Program-made: the position numbers and the translations under genes
From: Roseateles sp. DAIF2
GTDB taxonomy: Bacteria > Pseudomonadota > Gammaproteobacteria > Burkholderiales > Burkholderiaceae_C
Assembly (NCBI RefSeq): GCF_015624425.1
Contig: NZ_CP049919.1
Location: forward strand, 1,674,001-1,738,000
Direction: 5' to 3'
Length of the DNA stretch: 64,000 nucleotides
Notes under the pieces: model-generated
Told to the model about the DNA's origin: nothing
What the model saw: only the letters and a program-made list of their open reading frames with translations
Databases searched by the model: none
Shown: one piece after another, positions 55,908 through 62,787 of the stretch
How positions within the stretch are numbered: position 1 is the first letter of the stretch
Layout: every line of letters starts with the position of its first letter

Positions 55908-57554
55908 ATGGCGTTGCCGGGCCAGATGATGTCCATGCCCCTGCTGATTTCTTCGCTGATCCAGCATGCGGCCCGGCACTCGGGTGATACCGAGATCGTC
56001 AGCAAGCGTTGCGAAGGCGACCTGCACCGCTACACCTGGCGCGACGCCGAGTTGCGCTCGCGCCGGCTGGCCCAGGCGCTGGCGCGGCTGGGCTGCGAGA
56101 GCGGCGAGCGGGTCGGCACCCTGGCCTGGAACGGGCACCGCCACCTGGAGATCTACTACGGCGCCTCCGGCTCGGCCCTGGTCTGCCACACGATCAACCC
56201 GCGCCTCTTCCCCGAGCAGATCGCCTGGATCGTCGGCGATGCCGAGGACCGGGTGCTGTGCTTCGACCTCACCTTTCTGCCCCTGGTCGAGAAGCTGGCG
56301 CCGCTGCTGACGACGGTGCGGCATTTCGTGCTGATGAGCGACCGCGCCCATATGCCGGCGGCCAGCGCGATCCCGAACCTGCTGTGCTACGAGGAGCTGC
56401 TGGCGGCCGAGGACGGCGATTACGTCTGGCCGCAGTTCGACGAGAACACCGCCTCCAGCATCTGCTACACCTCGGGCACGACCGGCAACCCCAAGGGTGC
56501 CGTCTACAGCCACCGCTCCAGCGTGCTGCATGCCTATGGCGCGGCGCTGCCGGACGCGATGGACTGCTCGGCCAAGGACGTGATCCTGCCGGTGGTGCCG
56601 ATGTTCCATGTCAACGCCTGGGGCCTGCCCTACAGCATGGCCATCGTCGGCGCCAAGGTGGTGTTTCCCGGGCCGCATCTGGACGGCAAGTCGCTCTACG
56701 AGCTGTTCGAGAACGAGGGCGTGACCTTCAGCGCCGGCGTGCCGACGGTCTGGCTGGGCCTGCTGACCTATGTGAAGTCCAACAACCTGCGCTTCAGCAC
56801 CTTCAAGCGCACCGTGATCGGCGGCTCGGCCTGCCCGCCGGCGATGCTGGCCACCCTGATGGACGACTATGGCGTCGAGGTGATCCATGCCTGGGGCATG
56901 ACCGAGCTGTCGCCGCTGGGCACCCTGTCCAAGCTGAACTCCAAGCAGCTGGAGCTGCCGCCGGAGCAGCAGCGCCGCATCCTGGAGAAGCAGGGCAAGG
57001 TGATCTACGGCATCGACATGGCGGTGATCGACGACGAGGGTCGGGCCTTGCCCTGGGACGGCCGGAGCTCGGGCAATCTGGTGGTGCGCGGCCATTGGGT
57101 GATCGGCAGCTATTTCCGCCAGGCCGCTTCGCCGCTGGTGACGGTGGACGGCCAGCCGGGCTGGTTCCCGACCGGCGATGTCGCGACCATCGACGCCGAC
57201 GGTTTCATGCAGATCACCGACCGCAGCAAGGACGTGATCAAGTCCGGCGGCGAATGGATCAGCTCGATCGAGCTGGAGAACATCGCGATGGCCCACCCGG
57301 CCGTGCACGAGGCCGCGGTGATCGCCGCGCTGCATCCGAAATGGGACGAACGGCCGCTGCTGGTGGTCGTCAAGAAGCCCGGGGCCGAGATCGGCCGCGA
57401 GGAGATGCTGGCCTTCTACGAGGGCAAGATCGCCAAGTGGCAGATCCCGGACGACGTGGCCTTCGTCGCGGAGATTCCTCACACCGCCACCGGCAAGATC
57501 CAAAAGCTCAAGCTGCGCGAGCAGTTCAAGGGCTACCGCTTGCCCGGAGCCTGA
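55908..57554 (+). CDS. Acyl-CoA ligase (AMP-forming, AlkK-like medium/long-chain type)
   Basis: A 548-residue ANL-superfamily enzyme that activates a carboxylic acid with ATP and CoA. The P-loop is [16 protein letters not shown] (near 186-201), the A5 motif is [12 protein letters not shown], the hinge is [21 protein letters not shown] and the catalytic C-terminal lysine is in [13 protein letters not shown]. The closest recognised group is the medium-chain AlkK/long-chain FadD3-like ligases. The downstream ABC transporter genes (57640-62787) suggest that it activates the acid they import. It starts after AGGAGACTGCCG. Substrate not determined. Confidence 0.9.
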
Positions 57555-57639: not shown

Positions 57640-58893
57640 ATGTATAGCCAACGCAGTCACAAGCCTGTCCGGATGAAAGCCGGCCTGGCGGCGCTCCTCG
57701 TCGCCAGCGGCGCCGTCGCCCATGCGCAGCAGAAGGGCGAGGTGGTGAAGATCGCCTGGATCGATCCGCTCTCCGGCCTGATGGCGCCGGTGGGCCAGAA
57801 CCAGGTGAAGAGCTTCCAGTTCTTCGCCGAGAAGTTCAACGCCAGCAACCCGGCGGGCGTGAAGTTCGAGATCATCCCGATCGACAACAAGCTGAGCCCG
57901 GCCGAGAGCCTGAACGCGCTGAAGTCCGCGCTCGACCAGGGCGTGCGCTACGTCACCCAGGGCAATGGCTCGGGCGCGGCGCTGGCCATCATCGACGCGG
58001 TCAACAAGCACAACGAGCGCAACCCCGGCAAGGAGGTGCTGTACCTGAACCACTCGGCGGTCGACCCCGACCTGACCAACAGCAAGTGCAGCTACTGGCA
58101 TTTCCGCTTCGACGCCGACACCTCGATGAAGATGGAGGCCATCACTACTTTCCTGAAGGACCAGGCCGACGTCAAGAAGGTGTTCCTGCTGAACCAGAAC
58201 TACGCGCATGGCCACCAGGTCGCCAAGTACGCCAAGGAGATGCTGGCGCGCAAGCGCCCGGACGTGCAGGTGGTCGGCGAGGACCTGCATCCGCTGGCCC
58301 AGGTGCGCGACTTCGCGCCCTATGTGGCCAAGATCAAGGCCAGCGGCGCCGACACCGTGATCACCGGCAACTGGGGCTCGGATCTGGCCCTGCTGGTGAA
58401 GGCGGCCAACGAGGCCGGCTTCCAGGGCAAGTTCTACACCTACTACGCCGGCGTCACCGGCACGCCCACCGCGATCGGCGCCAGCGGCGCCGGCCGCGTC
58501 TACCAGGTGGCCTACAACCACAACAGCATGGGCGGCCAGATGGGCCAATGGGCCGACGAGTTCAAGAAGAAGTTCAACGACGACTTCTACACCGGCAGCG
58601 TGATCCACATCTACACTGCGCTGTCGGCGGCGATGGCCAAGGCCAAGAGCACCGACCCGGTCAAGGTGGCCGCGGCGCTGGAGGGCCTGCAGCTGAAGAG
58701 CTTCAACGGCAATGTCGAGGTGCGCAAGACCGACCACCAGCTGCAGCAGGCGCTCTACATCTCGGTCTGGCAGAAGACCGACGCCAAGAATCCCTACAAC
58801 GTCGAGAACACCGGCTACAACTTCGCGCCGGTCAAGACCTACGAGTCCTACGTCTCCAGCACGCCGACGTCCTGCCAAATGAAACGCCCCTGA
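57640..58893 (+). CDS. Branched-chain-type ABC transporter substrate-binding protein
   Basis: A 417-residue periplasmic binding protein of the type I leucine/isoleucine/valine-binding (Peripla_BP_6) class. The signal peptide ends at about GAVAHAQQ. The mature part begins VVKIAWIDPLSGLMAPVGQNQ, followed by the two-lobed pattern. The set of residues that grip amino acids in LivJ is not evident, and the gene follows an acyl-CoA ligase, so an aromatic or aliphatic acid or amide is a more likely ligand than an amino acid. The start at 57640 follows AAAGGAGACAACG. The permease and ATPase genes follow. Confidence 0.9.
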   Translation: MYSQRSHKPVRMKAGLAALLVASGAVAHAQQKGEVVKIAWIDPLSGLMAPVGQNQVKSFQFFAEKFNASNPAGVKFEIIPIDNKLSPAESLNALKSALDQGVRYVTQGNGSGAALAIIDAVNKHNERNPGKEVLYLNHSAVDPDLTNSKCSYWHFRFDADTSMKMEAITTFLKDQADVKKVFLLNQNYAHGHQVAKYAKEMLARKRPDVQVVGEDLHPLAQVRDFAPYVAKIKASGADTVITGNWGSDLALLVKAANEAGFQGKFYTYYAGVTGTPTAIGASGAGRVYQVAYNHNSMGGQMGQWADEFKKKFNDDFYTGSVIHIYTALSAAMAKAKSTDPVKVAAALEGLQLKSFNGNVEVRKTDHQLQQALYISVWQKTDAKNPYNVENTGYNFAPVKTYESYVSSTPTSCQMKRP

Positions 58894-58996
58894 GCGAGTC
58901 TGCCGGCCCGGCCCCGTGGTCGCCCGAGGGCGGCCACGGGCCACAATGCGCCCCCTCGCTTCGCGCATCCGACATTGCCCCGTCTTACGAGCCGCC

Positions 58997-59998
58997 GTGG
59001 ACCAACTCCTGATCAACCTGCTGAACGGCCTGTCCTCCGGGCTGCTGCTGTTCATGCTCAGCTCGGGCCTGACGCTGATCTTCAGCATGATGGGCGTGCT
59101 GAACTTCGCCCATGCCAGCTTCTACATGCTGGGCGCCTATGTGGCCTACAGCCTGGCCAAGCTGCTCGGCTTCTGGCCGGCGCTGCTGGTCGCGCCGCTG
59201 CTGGTGGGGCTGGTGGGCGCGGCCTTCGAGCGCCTGGCGCTGCGCCGGGTGCACAAGTTCGGCCATGTGCCCGAGCTCCTGATCACCTTCGGCCTCAGCT
59301 ATGTGCTGCTGGAGCTGGTGCAGCTGATCTGGGGGCGCACCGCCGTGCCCTTCGCGCCGCCCGCGGCGCTGCAGGGGCCGGCCTTCTCGATCGTGCAGCA
59401 TCCGGTCGAGGGCCTGTCCCTGGTGCTGGGCGGCGCGCCGGCCTCGGTCTGCGCCGCCGCCCTGTGCTCCAACTTCCCGTTGACCCGGCTGTTCATGATG
59501 GGCGTGGCCCTGCTGATGCTGCTGGGCCTGTGGCTGCTGCTGACGCGCACCCGCATCGGCCTGGTGATCCAGGCGGCGCTGACGCATCCGGAGATGGTCG
59601 AGGCGCTGGGCCACAACGTGCCGCGCGTGTTCATGCTGGTGTTCGGCAGCGGCTGCGCGCTGGCGGCGCTGGCCGGCGTGATCGGCGGCATCACCTTCGT
59701 CACCGAGCCGACGATGGCGGCGCTGATCGGCTCCATCATCTTCGTCGTGATCGTCGTCGGCGGCGTCGGCTCGCTGGCCGGGGCCTTCGTCGGCTCGATC
59801 CTGATTGGCCTGCTGCAGACCCTGCCGCTGACGGTGGACGGCTCGCTGGCCTCGCTGTTCAAGCTGGGCCCCGAGACCTTCGGCTATCCGATCCTGAAGC
59901 TGACCCTGGCCCAGGTGGCGCCGATCCTGCCCTATCTGCTGATGGTGCTGATCCTGATCTTCCGGCCCAAGGGCCTGCTCGGCACAAGAGATGAATAG
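58997..59998 (+). CDS. Branched-chain-type ABC transporter permease (LivH-like)
   Basis: A 333-residue inner-membrane permease with about eight to nine helices. A GTG start at 58997 (VDQLLINLLNGLSSG) places the first helix at the N-terminus as in LivH; an in-frame ATG at 58946 is a weaker choice. Family features are GLTLIFSMMGVLNFAHASFYMLGAY near the start and LAGVIGGITFVTEPTMAALIGSIIFVVIVVGGVGSLAGAFVG near the end, read in parts. The long loop with two Cys residues (SVCAAALCSNF) is unusual. The last 8 bp overlap the next permease gene. Confidence 0.9.
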   Translation: MDQLLINLLNGLSSGLLLFMLSSGLTLIFSMMGVLNFAHASFYMLGAYVAYSLAKLLGFWPALLVAPLLVGLVGAAFERLALRRVHKFGHVPELLITFGLSYVLLELVQLIWGRTAVPFAPPAALQGPAFSIVQHPVEGLSLVLGGAPASVCAAALCSNFPLTRLFMMGVALLMLLGLWLLLTRTRIGLVIQAALTHPEMVEALGHNVPRVFMLVFGSGCALAALAGVIGGITFVTEPTMAALIGSIIFVVIVVGGVGSLAGAFVGSILIGLLQTLPLTVDGSLASLFKLGPETFGYPILKLTLAQVAPILPYLLMVLILIFRPKGLLGTRDE

Positions 59999-61304
59999 CC
60001 GCATGGGCGCCCACAACACCCACTACCACTTCAAGCCCCACAACGTCGGCCGCTGGCTGGTCTGGGGCCTGTTCGCCATCGCCCTGCTGGTCGCGCCGCT
60101 GATCTGGACCAGCAGCCTGTCGCAGACCATGCTGAGCCAGATGGGCATCGGCATCATCGCCTGCCTGGCCTACAACATGCTGCTGGGGCAAGGCGGCATG
60201 CTCAGCTTCGGCCATGCGGTCTACAGCGGCCTGGGCGCCTTCCTGGCGATCCATACCCTGAACCAGGTCTCGGCCGGCGCGCTGGCGCTGCCGGTCAGCC
60301 TGGTGCCGCTGGTCGGCGGGCTGGCGGGCCTGGGCTTCGCGGCGCTGTTCGGCTATGTGTCGACCAAGAAGGCCGGCACGCCCTTCGCGATGATCACCCT
60401 GGGCATCGGCGAGCTGATCTGGTCGATGTCGCTGATGCTGCCGGAGTTCTTCGGCGGCGAGGGCGGCATCTCGGGTAATCGCGTGGTCGGCAAACCCCTG
60501 CTGGGCATCAGCTTCGGGCCGCAGATCCAGGTCTACTACCTGATCGCGCTCTACTGCTTCGTCTGCACCGCGGCGATGTTCGCGCTGACGCGCACGCCGC
60601 TGGGCCGCATGCTCAACGCGGTGCGCGACAACCCCGAGCGGGTCGAGTTCATCGGCTACGACACGCAATGGGTGCGCTACCTGGCCTTCATGCTCTCGGG
60701 CTTCTTCGCCGGCATCGCCGGCGGCCTGGGCGCGATCAACACCGAGATCGTCACCGCCGAGGTGGTGGGCGCGGCGCGCTCCGGTGCCTACCTGCTGTTC
60801 ACCTTCCTGGGCGGCGCCACCTTCTTCTTCGGCCCCATCATCGGCGCGGTGCTGATGGTGATCGCCGGCGTGCTGCTGTCGGAGCTGACCAAGGCCTGGC
60901 TGCTCTACCTGGGCCTGATCTTCCTGTTCATGGTGGCCTATGCGCCGGGCGGCATCGCCAGCCTGATCATGATGAACCTGCGCGTCGTGGCCTTCGGCAA
61001 GCTGGGTCGCATCTGGACCGCCTACCTGGCGCTGGGCGGCAGCGCGCTGACCCTGCTGGGCGGCGCCGGCGCGATGATCGAGATGCTCTACCACCTGCAG
61101 CTCAACGAGGCCCTGGGCCCGCAGCTGAACTTCATGGGCACGACCATCAATGCCCATGGTGTCGACGCCTGGCTGGGCTCGGCCCTGGTGCTGCTGGTCG
61201 GCGCGGCGATGTTCGAGCTGGCGCGGCGCCAGTTCAAGCGCGAGTGGGATCTCACGCAGGAGGAGATCGAGAAAGAGATCAAACGTCGGGAGGCGCTCGG
61301 ATGA
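59991..61304 (+). CDS. Branched-chain-type ABC transporter permease (LivM-like)
   Basis: A 437-residue permease, larger than the LivH-like partner, with about ten helices. The LivM signature appears in YNMLLGQGGMLSFGHAVYSGLGAFLAIHTL and RTPLGRMLNAVRDNPERVEFIGYD, in parts. The C-terminal extension (about 330-437) adds two further helices and ends in a basic segment (EIEKEIKRREALG). The start at 59991 overlaps the previous gene; an ATG at 60003 is possible. Its stop overlaps the ATPase start (ATGA). Confidence 0.92.
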   Translation: MNSRMGAHNTHYHFKPHNVGRWLVWGLFAIALLVAPLIWTSSLSQTMLSQMGIGIIACLAYNMLLGQGGMLSFGHAVYSGLGAFLAIHTLNQVSAGALALPVSLVPLVGGLAGLGFAALFGYVSTKKAGTPFAMITLGIGELIWSMSLMLPEFFGGEGGISGNRVVGKPLLGISFGPQIQVYYLIALYCFVCTAAMFALTRTPLGRMLNAVRDNPERVEFIGYDTQWVRYLAFMLSGFFAGIAGGLGAINTEIVTAEVVGAARSGAYLLFTFLGGATFFFGPIIGAVLMVIAGVLLSELTKAWLLYLGLIFLFMVAYAPGGIASLIMMNLRVVAFGKLGRIWTAYLALGGSALTLLGGAGAMIEMLYHLQLNEALGPQLNFMGTTINAHGVDAWLGSALVLLVGAAMFELARRQFKREWDLTQEEIEKEIKRREALG

Positions 61305-62071
61305 GCACGAGCAGCGAGTACGCCTTGGAGCTGCTGGATGTGCGCAAGAGCTTCGGCAAGAGCGAGATCATCCGCGGCGCGCAGCTGCGGGTGAAACCCG
61401 GCGAGCGGGTCGCGATCATCGGGCCGAACGGCGCGGGCAAGAGCACCCTGTTCAACCTGATCAGCGGCCGCTTCGCGCCCAGCAGCGGCGAGATCCGCCT
61501 GCATGGCCAGCGCATCGACGGCCACAAGCCCTACGAGATCAACCGCCGCGGCCTATCGCGCAGCTTCCAGGTCTCGAACCTGTTCACGCGCCTGTCGGTG
61601 TTCGAGAACATCCGCTGCGCGGTGCTGTGGAGCATGGGCTACCGCTATGCCTTCTGGAAGTTCCTGGCCGAATTGGACGACGCCAACGAGCGTGCCGAAG
61701 CCGTGCTGGAGATGATCAAGCTCGACAAGAAGCGCGACGTGCTGGCGATGAACCTGACCTATGCCGAGGCGCGCGCGCTGGAGATCGGCATCACGATCGC
61801 CGGCGGCTCCAGCGTGATCCTGCTGGACGAACCGACCGCCGGCATGAGCAAGAGCGAGACCCGGCGCTTCATCCAGCTGATCCGCGAGGTCACCGAGGGC
61901 AAGACCCTGTTGACCGTGGAGCACGACATGGGCGTGGTGTTCGGCCTGGCGGACAAGATCGCGGTGCTGGTCTATGGTGAGGTGATCGCCTTCGACACGC
62001 CCGATGCGGTGCGCGCCAACGCGCGCGTGCAGGAGGCCTATCTGGGTTCGGTGCTGGCGGAGGCGCATTGA
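61301..62071 (+). CDS. ABC transporter ATP-binding protein (LivG-like) with altered signature motif
   Basis: A 256-residue ATPase. Walker A (GPNGAGKST, 41-49), Walker B (SVILLDEPTAG, 171-181) and the switch His (VEHDM) are normal. The signature region reads LTYAEARALEIG (152-163), where LivG proteins have L-x-Y-G-x-Q-R-LEI: the glycine that contacts the ATP gamma-phosphate of the partner is Ala155 and the following Gln is also changed. It overlaps livM-like by four bases and shares one base with the next ATPase gene. Combined with the altered Walker A of that partner, this suggests an asymmetric pair. Confidence 0.93.
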   Translation: MSTSSEYALELLDVRKSFGKSEIIRGAQLRVKPGERVAIIGPNGAGKSTLFNLISGRFAPSSGEIRLHGQRIDGHKPYEINRRGLSRSFQVSNLFTRLSVFENIRCAVLWSMGYRYAFWKFLAELDDANERAEAVLEMIKLDKKRDVLAMNLTYAEARALEIGITIAGGSSVILLDEPTAGMSKSETRRFIQLIREVTEGKTLLTVEHDMGVVFGLADKIAVLVYGEVIAFDTPDAVRANARVQEAYLGSVLAEAH

Positions 62072-62787
62072 TGGCGGCGGACACCACGCGAGTGCTCAAG
62101 CTGGACAATGTCCACGCCTTCTACGGCAAGAGCCATGTGCTGCATGGCGTCAGCATGGAGCTGCGTCCCGGCGAGATCGTCAGCCTCTTGGGCCGCAACG
62201 GCTCGGGCCGCTCGACCACGGTCAAGACCATCATGGGCCAGGTCGACGGCAACGGCTCGGTGCGCTTCGGCGAGCAGGAGCTGCTGGGCCGCAAGGCGTA
62301 TGAGATCGCGCATCAGGGCATTGGCTATGTGCCGGAGAACCGCGACATCTTCCCCAAGCTGAGCGTGCACCAGAACCTGATGCTGGGCCAGAAGTCGGGC
62401 GCGAAGAACACGCGCTGGAGCTTCGACGATATGTATCGGATGTTCCCGCGCCTGAAGGAGCGCCAGCACACCGAGGCCGGCGTGCTCTCCGGCGGCGAGC
62501 AGCAGATGCTGACCCTGTGCCGCACCCTGATGGGCGATCCGGACCTGATCATGATCGACGAGCCCACCGAGGGCCTGGCGCCGAAGATCGTCGAGCTGGT
62601 GGCCGAGTACCTGAAGGAGCTGCGCCGGCGTGGCATCGCGGTGCTGCTGGTCGAGCAGAAGCTGGCGATCGCGCTGGAGATCTCGGAGCGCTGCTATGTG
62701 ATGGGCCATGGCCGCATCGTGTTCGAGGGCACGCCGGCCGAGCTGCGGGCGAACAGCTACATCCGCAAGGAGTGGCTGGAGGTTTAG
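62071..62787 (+). CDS. ABC transporter ATP-binding protein (LivF-like) with Walker A Lys to Arg
   Basis: A 238-residue ATPase. The Walker A motif reads GRNGSGRST (41-49); the usual invariant lysine is Arg47 (codon CGC at 62209-62211). Walker B (LIMIDEPTEGLAP), the signature (LSGGEQQMLTLCRTLM) and the Q loop (GYVPENRDIF) are otherwise normal, and VLLVEQKLAIAL is the LivF switch region. The start ATG overlaps the stop of the LivG-like gene by one base. The reading frame is intact, so this is not a decaying gene. It closes the transporter operon; the 3' end overlaps the next, convergent gene by four bases. Confidence 0.93.
   Translation: MAADTTRVLKLDNVHAFYGKSHVLHGVSMELRPGEIVSLLGRNGSGRSTTVKTIMGQVDGNGSVRFGEQELLGRKAYEIAHQGIGYVPENRDIFPKLSVHQNLMLGQKSGAKNTRWSFDDMYRMFPRLKERQHTEAGVLSGGEQQMLTLCRTLMGDPDLIMIDEPTEGLAPKIVELVAEYLKELRRRGIAVLLVEQKLAIALEISERCYVMGHGRIVFEGTPAELRANSYIRKEWLEV

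Follow-up and report, generated by a model that had tools for sequence, protein, structure and literature searches.

Two deviant motifs fall, by standard geometry, in one composite ATP site throughout a clade of Liv-type ABC importers

The ATPase pair of a Liv-type ABC importer encoded in the window, the 64,000-nucleotide stretch of Roseateles sp. DAIF2 DNA analysed here, carries an arginine at the Walker A lysine of its LivF-like subunit (Arg47) and an alanine at the second signature glycine of its LivG-like subunit (Ala155). By established ABC geometry, these two residues sit in one composite site (PMC7756269). The combination of Arg47 with a residue other than glycine at position 155 is a fixed trait of this LivG clade. 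From the motifs we favor, with moderate confidence, a fixed asymmetric ATPase heterodimer in which the LivG-side site would be catalytic and the LivF-side site a degenerate, ATP-holding clamp, with hydrolysis at a single site driving transport.

The two ATPase genes close a run of six plus-strand genes in the order CoA ligase, binding protein, LivH, LivM, LivG, and LivF (Table 1). The cluster is of the Liv (HAAT) type, with two PF02653 permeases, two PF00005 ATPases, and a Peripla_BP binding protein together, and the LivG-like subunit ends in a BCA_ABC_TP_C tail whose PF12399 score exceeds the cut-off of 25.5 bits. By sequence, the nearest solved chain to the binding protein is 4xfk_A (195 bits). 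Orthology to E. coli LivG and LivF was rejected, as the scores fall below the NCBIfam equivalog cut-offs (PRK11300, 165.8 against 362 bits; PRK11614, 185.9 against 441 bits), and so was assignment to the urea transporter subunits UrtD and UrtE (TIGR03411, 195.1 against 304.1 bits; TIGR03410, 220.9 against 285.8 bits). The genome assembly comprises 6.01 Mb, and the nearest named LivG relatives among the matches listed belong to Roseateles and Paucibacter.

Table 1. Genes of the cluster and ATP-site residues, in window positions.
Feature	Coordinates	Strand	Remarks
AMP-forming acyl-CoA ligase, 3-(methylthio)propionyl-CoA ligase type	55908..57554	+	NCBIfam NF005426 1011.5 bits (cut-off 822); PF00501, PF13193; upstream end of cluster
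Periplasmic substrate-binding protein, Peripla_BP_6	57640..58893	+	PF13458 235.9 bits
LivH-type permease	58997..59998	+	PF02653 on frame 58973-59995; GTG start picked by eye
LivM-type permease, 437 aa	59991..61304	+	PF02653 at residues 47-314
LivM C-terminal extension, residues 326-437	60966..61301	+	Clade mark; two hydrophobic stretches
LivG-like ATPase, 256 aa	61301..62071	+	PF00005 98 bits; PF12399 35.7 bits
LivG Walker A Lys47, GPNGAGKST at 41-49 (consensus site)	61439..61441	+	Lys in 235/235 pairs
LivG Q-loop Gln90 (consensus site)	61568..61570	+	235/235 pairs
LivG signature LTYAEARAL, residues 152-160 (altered site)	61754..61780	+	Translated ORF; position 4 non-Gly in 137/137 class 1 pairs
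LivG Ala155, at second Gly of LSGGQ (altered site)	61763..61765	+	Codon read; second residue of predicted signature helix
LivG Walker B Glu177 (consensus site)	61829..61831	+	235/235 pairs
LivG H-loop His208 (consensus site)	61922..61924	+	235/235 pairs
LivF-like ATPase, 238 aa	62071..62787	+	ATG overlaps LivG stop
LivF Walker A Arg47 in GRNGSGRST, codon CGC (altered site)	62209..62211	+	Arg in 137/137 class 1 pairs
LivF Q-loop position Glu89 (VPEN) (altered site)	62335..62337	+	Glu in 227/235 LivF
LivF signature LSGGE (consensus site)	62485..62499	+	Ser-Gly-Gly in 235/235 pairs
LivF Walker B Glu164, retained within altered site	62560..62562	+	136/136 readable class 1 pairs
LivF Gln196 at the H-loop position (altered site; shared with other LivF)	62656..62658	+	Gln in 135/135 readable class 1 pairs

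Reading the open reading frame bears out the initial annotation, made from the sequence alone, in its claim that the LivG signature is LTYAEARAL with Ala155 for the conserved glycine. The span it gave, 61754..61789, is right at its start but too long at its end, since the motif stops three codons earlier, at 61780. Its remark that the signature glutamine is lost is also correct as a reading, with Glu156 in the Gln place of LSGGQ. As a signal, this loss was dropped because the residue there is free to vary among ordinary pairs; of the 66 Lys-type pairs described below, only 14 have Gln and 52 have lost it. The same annotation held that the altered LivF P-loop and the altered LivG signature form one and the same site and leave the other site consensus. 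The first point agrees with the geometry of ABC dimers (PMC7756269), and the second with our survey, in which the Lys, Gln, Glu, and His of LivG and the Ser-Gly-Gly of LivF are invariant. In each of the 137 class 1 pairs, the deviations fall, by standard geometry, in one composite site, and the other site is consensus.

Single-chain structure predictions place Arg47 at the N-terminal end of the LivF P-loop helix (chain mean pLDDT 88.2) and Ala155 at that of the LivG signature helix, residues 154-167 (chain mean pLDDT 72.6), with low confidence just ahead of that helix (below 50 at residues 122-150). Fold comparisons of the two models, the one for LivG being only moderately confident, show ordinary ABC ATPase folds and nothing further.

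To place the pair among its relatives, we collected 278 loci. Eighteen had no usable pair, and removal of duplicates from the other 260 left 235 distinct pairs. Relatives of the first group, class 1, were gathered by LivG similarity, blind to the LivF residue, from four sources within Pseudomonadota. The contig source supplied the best 80 of 562 confirmed LivG stretches; all 80 are at least 78% identical, so the class 1 set leans to close relatives. Of 398 genomes sampled from the phylum, 30, this genome among them, had a LivG match, at 33 places in all, each of which was read. A second genome source, from another class, gave 20 of 289 genomes, one of them a duplicate of a genome already in the set, and the plasmid source gave 8 of 20 plasmid records. 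The resulting 137 distinct class 1 pairs comprise 78 from contigs, 33 from the phylum genomes (the pair of this window included), 18 from genomes of the other class, and 8 from plasmids.

The comparison set of 66 distinct Lys-type pairs is defined by the Walker A lysine of LivF. Paralogues in this genome gave seven Lys-type pairs, one class 2 pair, and two loci without a pair. The rest came from 60 places listed by LivF, namely the first 40 by rank, skipping own-genome and class 1 places and two class 2 places already in the set, and 20 picked by hand from lower ranks; LivG adjoins LivF at 59 of the 60. In addition, the 398 genomes were scanned for GRNGxGR[ST]T regardless of LivG. This motif matched in 56 genomes, and the neighbors were read at all listed places except two (G393 and G009). 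Among its matches, L183, L184, and L186 were rejected as Liv pairs, as they carry an unrelated ABC ATPase (LPT[SA]FRQR), and L185 and L187 showed no match. No LivG/LivF pair was found at loci L122, L125-L127, and L135-L137. Three loci were excluded as cut: L036, L278, and L058, in which GRNGAGRST is visible and LivF is incomplete. Pairs with an internal stop in the aligned stretch (L229, in the LivG of a Lys-type pair; L277, in the LivF of a class 1 pair) and those with one TGA reported in the LivG frame (L113 and L276) were counted as read.

All relatives found by LivG similarity with a readable LivF have the LivF arginine and lack the LivG glycine. Across the 137 distinct class 1 pairs, LivF Walker A is always Arg and LivG position 155 is Ala in 128, Ser in 8, and Pro in 1, never Gly, which argues against chance or a sequencing slip. 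The most distant member is 46% identical in LivF and 48% in LivG. In a subset of 111 pairs, Arg47 is encoded by five codons (CGC, CGT, CGG, CGA, and AGG) and position 155 by four Ala and two Ser codons. This codon variety indicates that the residues are held rather than merely inherited.

The gene neighborhood is conserved as well. Among the 78 paired contig loci, from the best 80 of 562 LivG stretches, a match to the binding protein was found in 74, to LivH in 74, to LivM in 76, and, within the flanks read, to the ligase in 60. On a Paracoccus plasmid (L252), the order from ligase through binding protein, LivH, LivM, and LivG to LivF is identical. The six annotated class 1 plasmid loci also have the binding protein and both permeases, one of them partly annotated as hypothetical. 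The five plasmid members other than that of Paracoccus have different neighbor genes, many of them catabolic, so that the transported substrate probably differs between class 1 members. For the cluster studied here, the adjoining CoA ligase points to short-chain and methylthio acids as candidate substrates.

Comparison of all 235 pairs by LivF Walker A and LivG signature residue gave Arg/Ala in 128, Arg/Ser in 8, Arg/Pro in 1, Lys/Gly in 63, Lys/Val in 2, Lys/Ala in 1, and Arg/Gly in 32. Every class shows departures from consensus in the site that LivF and the LivG signature make up. An H-loop histidine is absent from LivF in all 233 readable pairs, and the asymmetry is therefore wider than class 1. 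In its place stands Gln in every readable class 1 pair and in 32 of 32 class 2 pairs, and Gln (56) or Lys (10) in the 66 Lys-type pairs. The Q-loop position of LivF is usually Glu (Table 1), and the Walker B glutamate of LivF is retained in all 234 readable pairs. The asymmetry of the pair studied here is an extreme form of one common to all sampled Liv pairs.

The 32 pairs that combine a LivF Walker A arginine with a retained signature glycine form class 2 (L152-L182 and, in this genome, L081 at about C1:212091-213557). Their count is uninformative on frequency because they were mostly chosen by the arginine. In all 32, the proline after the Walker B glutamate of LivF is replaced by isoleucine (DEI(T/S)E for DEP), and in 28 the LivG signature is YGRKR. 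Within the Lys-type set, 63 of 66 pairs retain the signature glycine; L211, L241, and L213 combine a Lys-type LivF with glycine-less LivG signatures (LPHVDRRLV and LVPAEKRRL). Ten of the 66 (L088, L207, L220-L222, L225, L230, L233, L234, and L244) have the LivF H-loop xxDKx, in which Lys replaces His, and read DEA rather than DEP in Walker B; we take these ten to be UrtE-like. Two loci of this genome, L086 and L087 (C1:2403456-2404956 and C1:2176603-2178103), encode near-identical Liv ATPases with almost no LivF branch length between them and perhaps stem from a recent duplication.

The permease LivM also sets class 1 apart. Beyond the PF02653 core, class 1 LivM has a tail of about 110 residues (median 111), at least 60 residues long in 134 of 135 pairs and 46 in the exception. 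A simple hydropathy count finds two hydrophobic stretches in 86 of these tails, one in 47, and none in 2; in the protein encoded here, both stretches have a 19-residue mean hydropathy of at least 1.4 and the second alone exceeds 1.6. No class 2 LivM tail reaches 60 residues (0 of 22 readable), and the five Lys-type tails that do (of 58 readable) are all LivM-LivG fusions, leaving none among unfused proteins. Among the sampled pairs, the extension is special to class 1. Given its presence in class 1 against none in class 2 or in unfused Lys-type pairs, the altered ATPase goes together with an unequal pair of permeases, and this co-occurrence suggests that the extension may be the membrane-side partner of the ATPase asymmetry. 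The fusions join LivM and LivG in one open frame at L208, L217, L227, L211, and L241, the last two running on into LivF as three-part fusions.

Phylogenetic trees were built quickly for both subunits, and several long branches were flagged in each. In the LivF tree (124 rows, trait residue masked), class 1 and class 2 each form a clade (SH-aLRT 99 and 97, respectively), and class 2 nests with seven Lys-type relatives, all seven with the LivG signature YGRKR. In the tree for LivG, a branch (97) separates the Ala rows of class 1 from the rest; grouping of the class 2 rows is weakly supported (66), and the two Ser rows of class 1 group together (63). A single origin of all Arg LivF is disfavored (AU p = 0.0165, on the quick tree with some long branches). 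The class 2 arginine is probably of separate origin from that of class 1, and these trees suggest about two origins of the arginine, one accompanied by signature loss on the same stem branch and the other not. At the class 1 root, no intermediate between the arginine and signature-loss steps was found in the trees of the sampled pairs.

The idea, raised at the outset, that Arg47 and Ala155 covary across homologues did not hold up as a repeated pattern. Both changes trace to one stem event, and the trees offer only two independent contrasts (sign test without power, p = 1), one of which shows no signature difference. The occurrence of either substitution without the other, at random, had been named as grounds for rejecting the paired site, and the answer depends on where one looks. 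Inside the clade this never happens; outside it, Arg stands with Gly in all class 2 pairs, and 3 of the 66 Lys-type pairs have a residue other than glycine. As far as the sampled pairs go, the LivF arginine and the LivG glycine loss are not obligatorily coupled.

In the model that we propose, the cluster would encode a Liv-type importer with a fixed asymmetric LivG-LivF heterodimer. Its working catalytic site would consist of the Walker A and B motifs, Q-loop, and H-loop of LivG with the LSGGE of LivF, and its degenerate site of LivF Arg47, Glu89, and Gln196 with Ala155 and Glu156 of the LivG signature. The degenerate site probably binds ATP and would hydrolyze it slowly or not at all, serving as a lasting clamp of the dimer, and hydrolysis at the LivG site alone would drive each transport cycle, giving a one-ATP cycle. 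Judged from its motifs, one-site hydrolysis is likely in the class 1 transporter. Some hydrolysis at the LivF site is possible because the Walker B Glu164 is retained. In addition, the H-loop glutamine of LivF alone is no proof of inactivity, since ABCC1 with Gln or Asn in the H-loop of NBS2 transports much as the wild type does (PMC7756269). The second arginine clade, class 2, which retains the signature glycine, also speaks against the model, as do the small number of independent contrasts in the trees and the sign test. On a broader and more tentative reading, somewhat less likely than not, Liv importers in general may be built on one permanently non-canonical site, that of the LivF Walker motifs and the LivG signature, which lacks the H-loop histidine. 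At least one large clade, class 1, may then have gone all the way to a one-ATP importer, through replacement of Lys by Arg and of Gly by Ala, Ser, or Pro, with a matching asymmetric permease, the LivM C-terminal hairpin extension.

Three other explanations were weighed. Both sites might hydrolyze ATP, in which case Arg47 and Ala155 would be a co-adapted, tolerated change that shifts the affinity or the rate at the LivF site without inactivating it. The retained Walker B glutamate and remaining P-loop of LivF fit this explanation, as do the class 2 pairs, which join the arginine to an intact signature glycine, and the capacity of an H-loop glutamine to function (PMC7756269). However, the changes cluster at one site only, and a Lys-to-Arg change with an altered signature corresponds to the motifs described as inactive in ABCG5/G8 (PMC7756502). 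We consider activity at both sites unlikely, although it is the strongest of the three.

It is more improbable still that two chance substitutions, mechanistically unlinked, have simply been co-inherited since the clade was founded. Their placement on one stem branch, the two contrasts, which give the independent-contrast test no power, and the occurrence of each change alone elsewhere fit this explanation, but no reversion is seen in 137 pairs, even at the lowest identities, and both changes lie in the one site already without an H-loop histidine. The LivF site might also be under drift, a relaxed relic without function in a transporter for which one site is enough, so that the changes bring no gain. 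Position 155 does wander among Ala, Ser, and Pro, and the residue after it among Glu, Asp, Ala, Ser, and Gly. Drift would nevertheless scatter Arg47, Glu164, and the H-loop Gln, and these are constant in every readable class 1 pair, Arg47 despite its five codons; we regard this explanation as very improbable. The asymmetric heterodimer with one catalytic site is the reading that we retain.

The reason for which many ABC transporters retain a broken ATP site has been studied mostly in exporters. Class 1 offers a simple importer of separate, expressible subunits, with the canonical and altered Walker motifs on different genes; its ordinary Lys/Gly relatives serve as controls, and the arginine-only class 2 separates the two changes. 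The survey also suggests modelling common Liv importers with two unlike ATP sites. Ordinary LivFG/UrtDE-like pairs, represented by the 66 Lys-type pairs, share with class 1 the fold, the pairing, the Gln or Lys at the LivF H-loop, and the LivG H-loop histidine. They differ from it in the Walker A lysine, in the signature glycine kept by most, and in lacking an unfused LivM tail (0 of 58). Class 2 shares the LivF arginine but keeps the signature glycine, has the Walker B Pro-to-Ile change, and lacks the LivM tail. In the open-licence literature, we found no report of ATP-site asymmetry in the Liv family, of the fixed arginine, or of the H-loop link; the available text of PMC6703430, on LivF, deals with LptB and has nothing on asymmetry.

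The initial annotation had likened the pair to asymmetric exporters placed in a Liv-type importer. The importer part stands, and the layout is nearer to ABCG5/G8 than to the usual type I exporter. Type I asymmetric exporters mostly change the Walker B glutamate; such a replacement in the degenerate site does not occur in class 1, where Glu164 is kept in 136 of 136 readable pairs. The sterol exporter ABCG5/G8 has a half-transporter architecture, and the fusion of ATPase and membrane domain seen in the ABCG subfamily is absent here, the ATPases and permeases being separate genes. In its motifs (Lys to Arg, a broken signature, and a kept Walker B Glu), the class 1 pattern resembles ABCG5/G8 more than type I exporters. 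The yeast transporter Pdr5 and the type I exporters TAP, ABCC1, and BmrCD are like class 1 in having their changes in one composite site, and Pdr5, unlike class 1, also loses the Walker B glutamate (PMC7756269).

An asymmetric importer is not new as an idea, since RbsA and NupO of Bacillus subtilis have been described as importers in which one site was judged degenerate from sequence (PMC11466899). Like class 1, they combine a second Walker A without Lys with a deviant signature. Unlike it, their domains are fused in one chain and belong to another importer family, and a fixed arginine is not mentioned in the available text (PMC11466899). In human ABCG5/G8, the Walker A of ABCG8 (GSSGCGRAS) and the signature of ABCG5 (ISTGE) make one site hydrolysis-inactive, so that, as in class 1, a Lys-to-Arg change in Walker A and a degenerate partner signature meet in one composite site (PMC7756502, PMC7756269). 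Its signature change is at position 3 rather than at the second glycine, and it has no binding protein. If all Liv importers do carry a non-canonical site and class 1 is a one-ATP importer, a bacterial importer would have independently reached the solution of ABCG5/G8.
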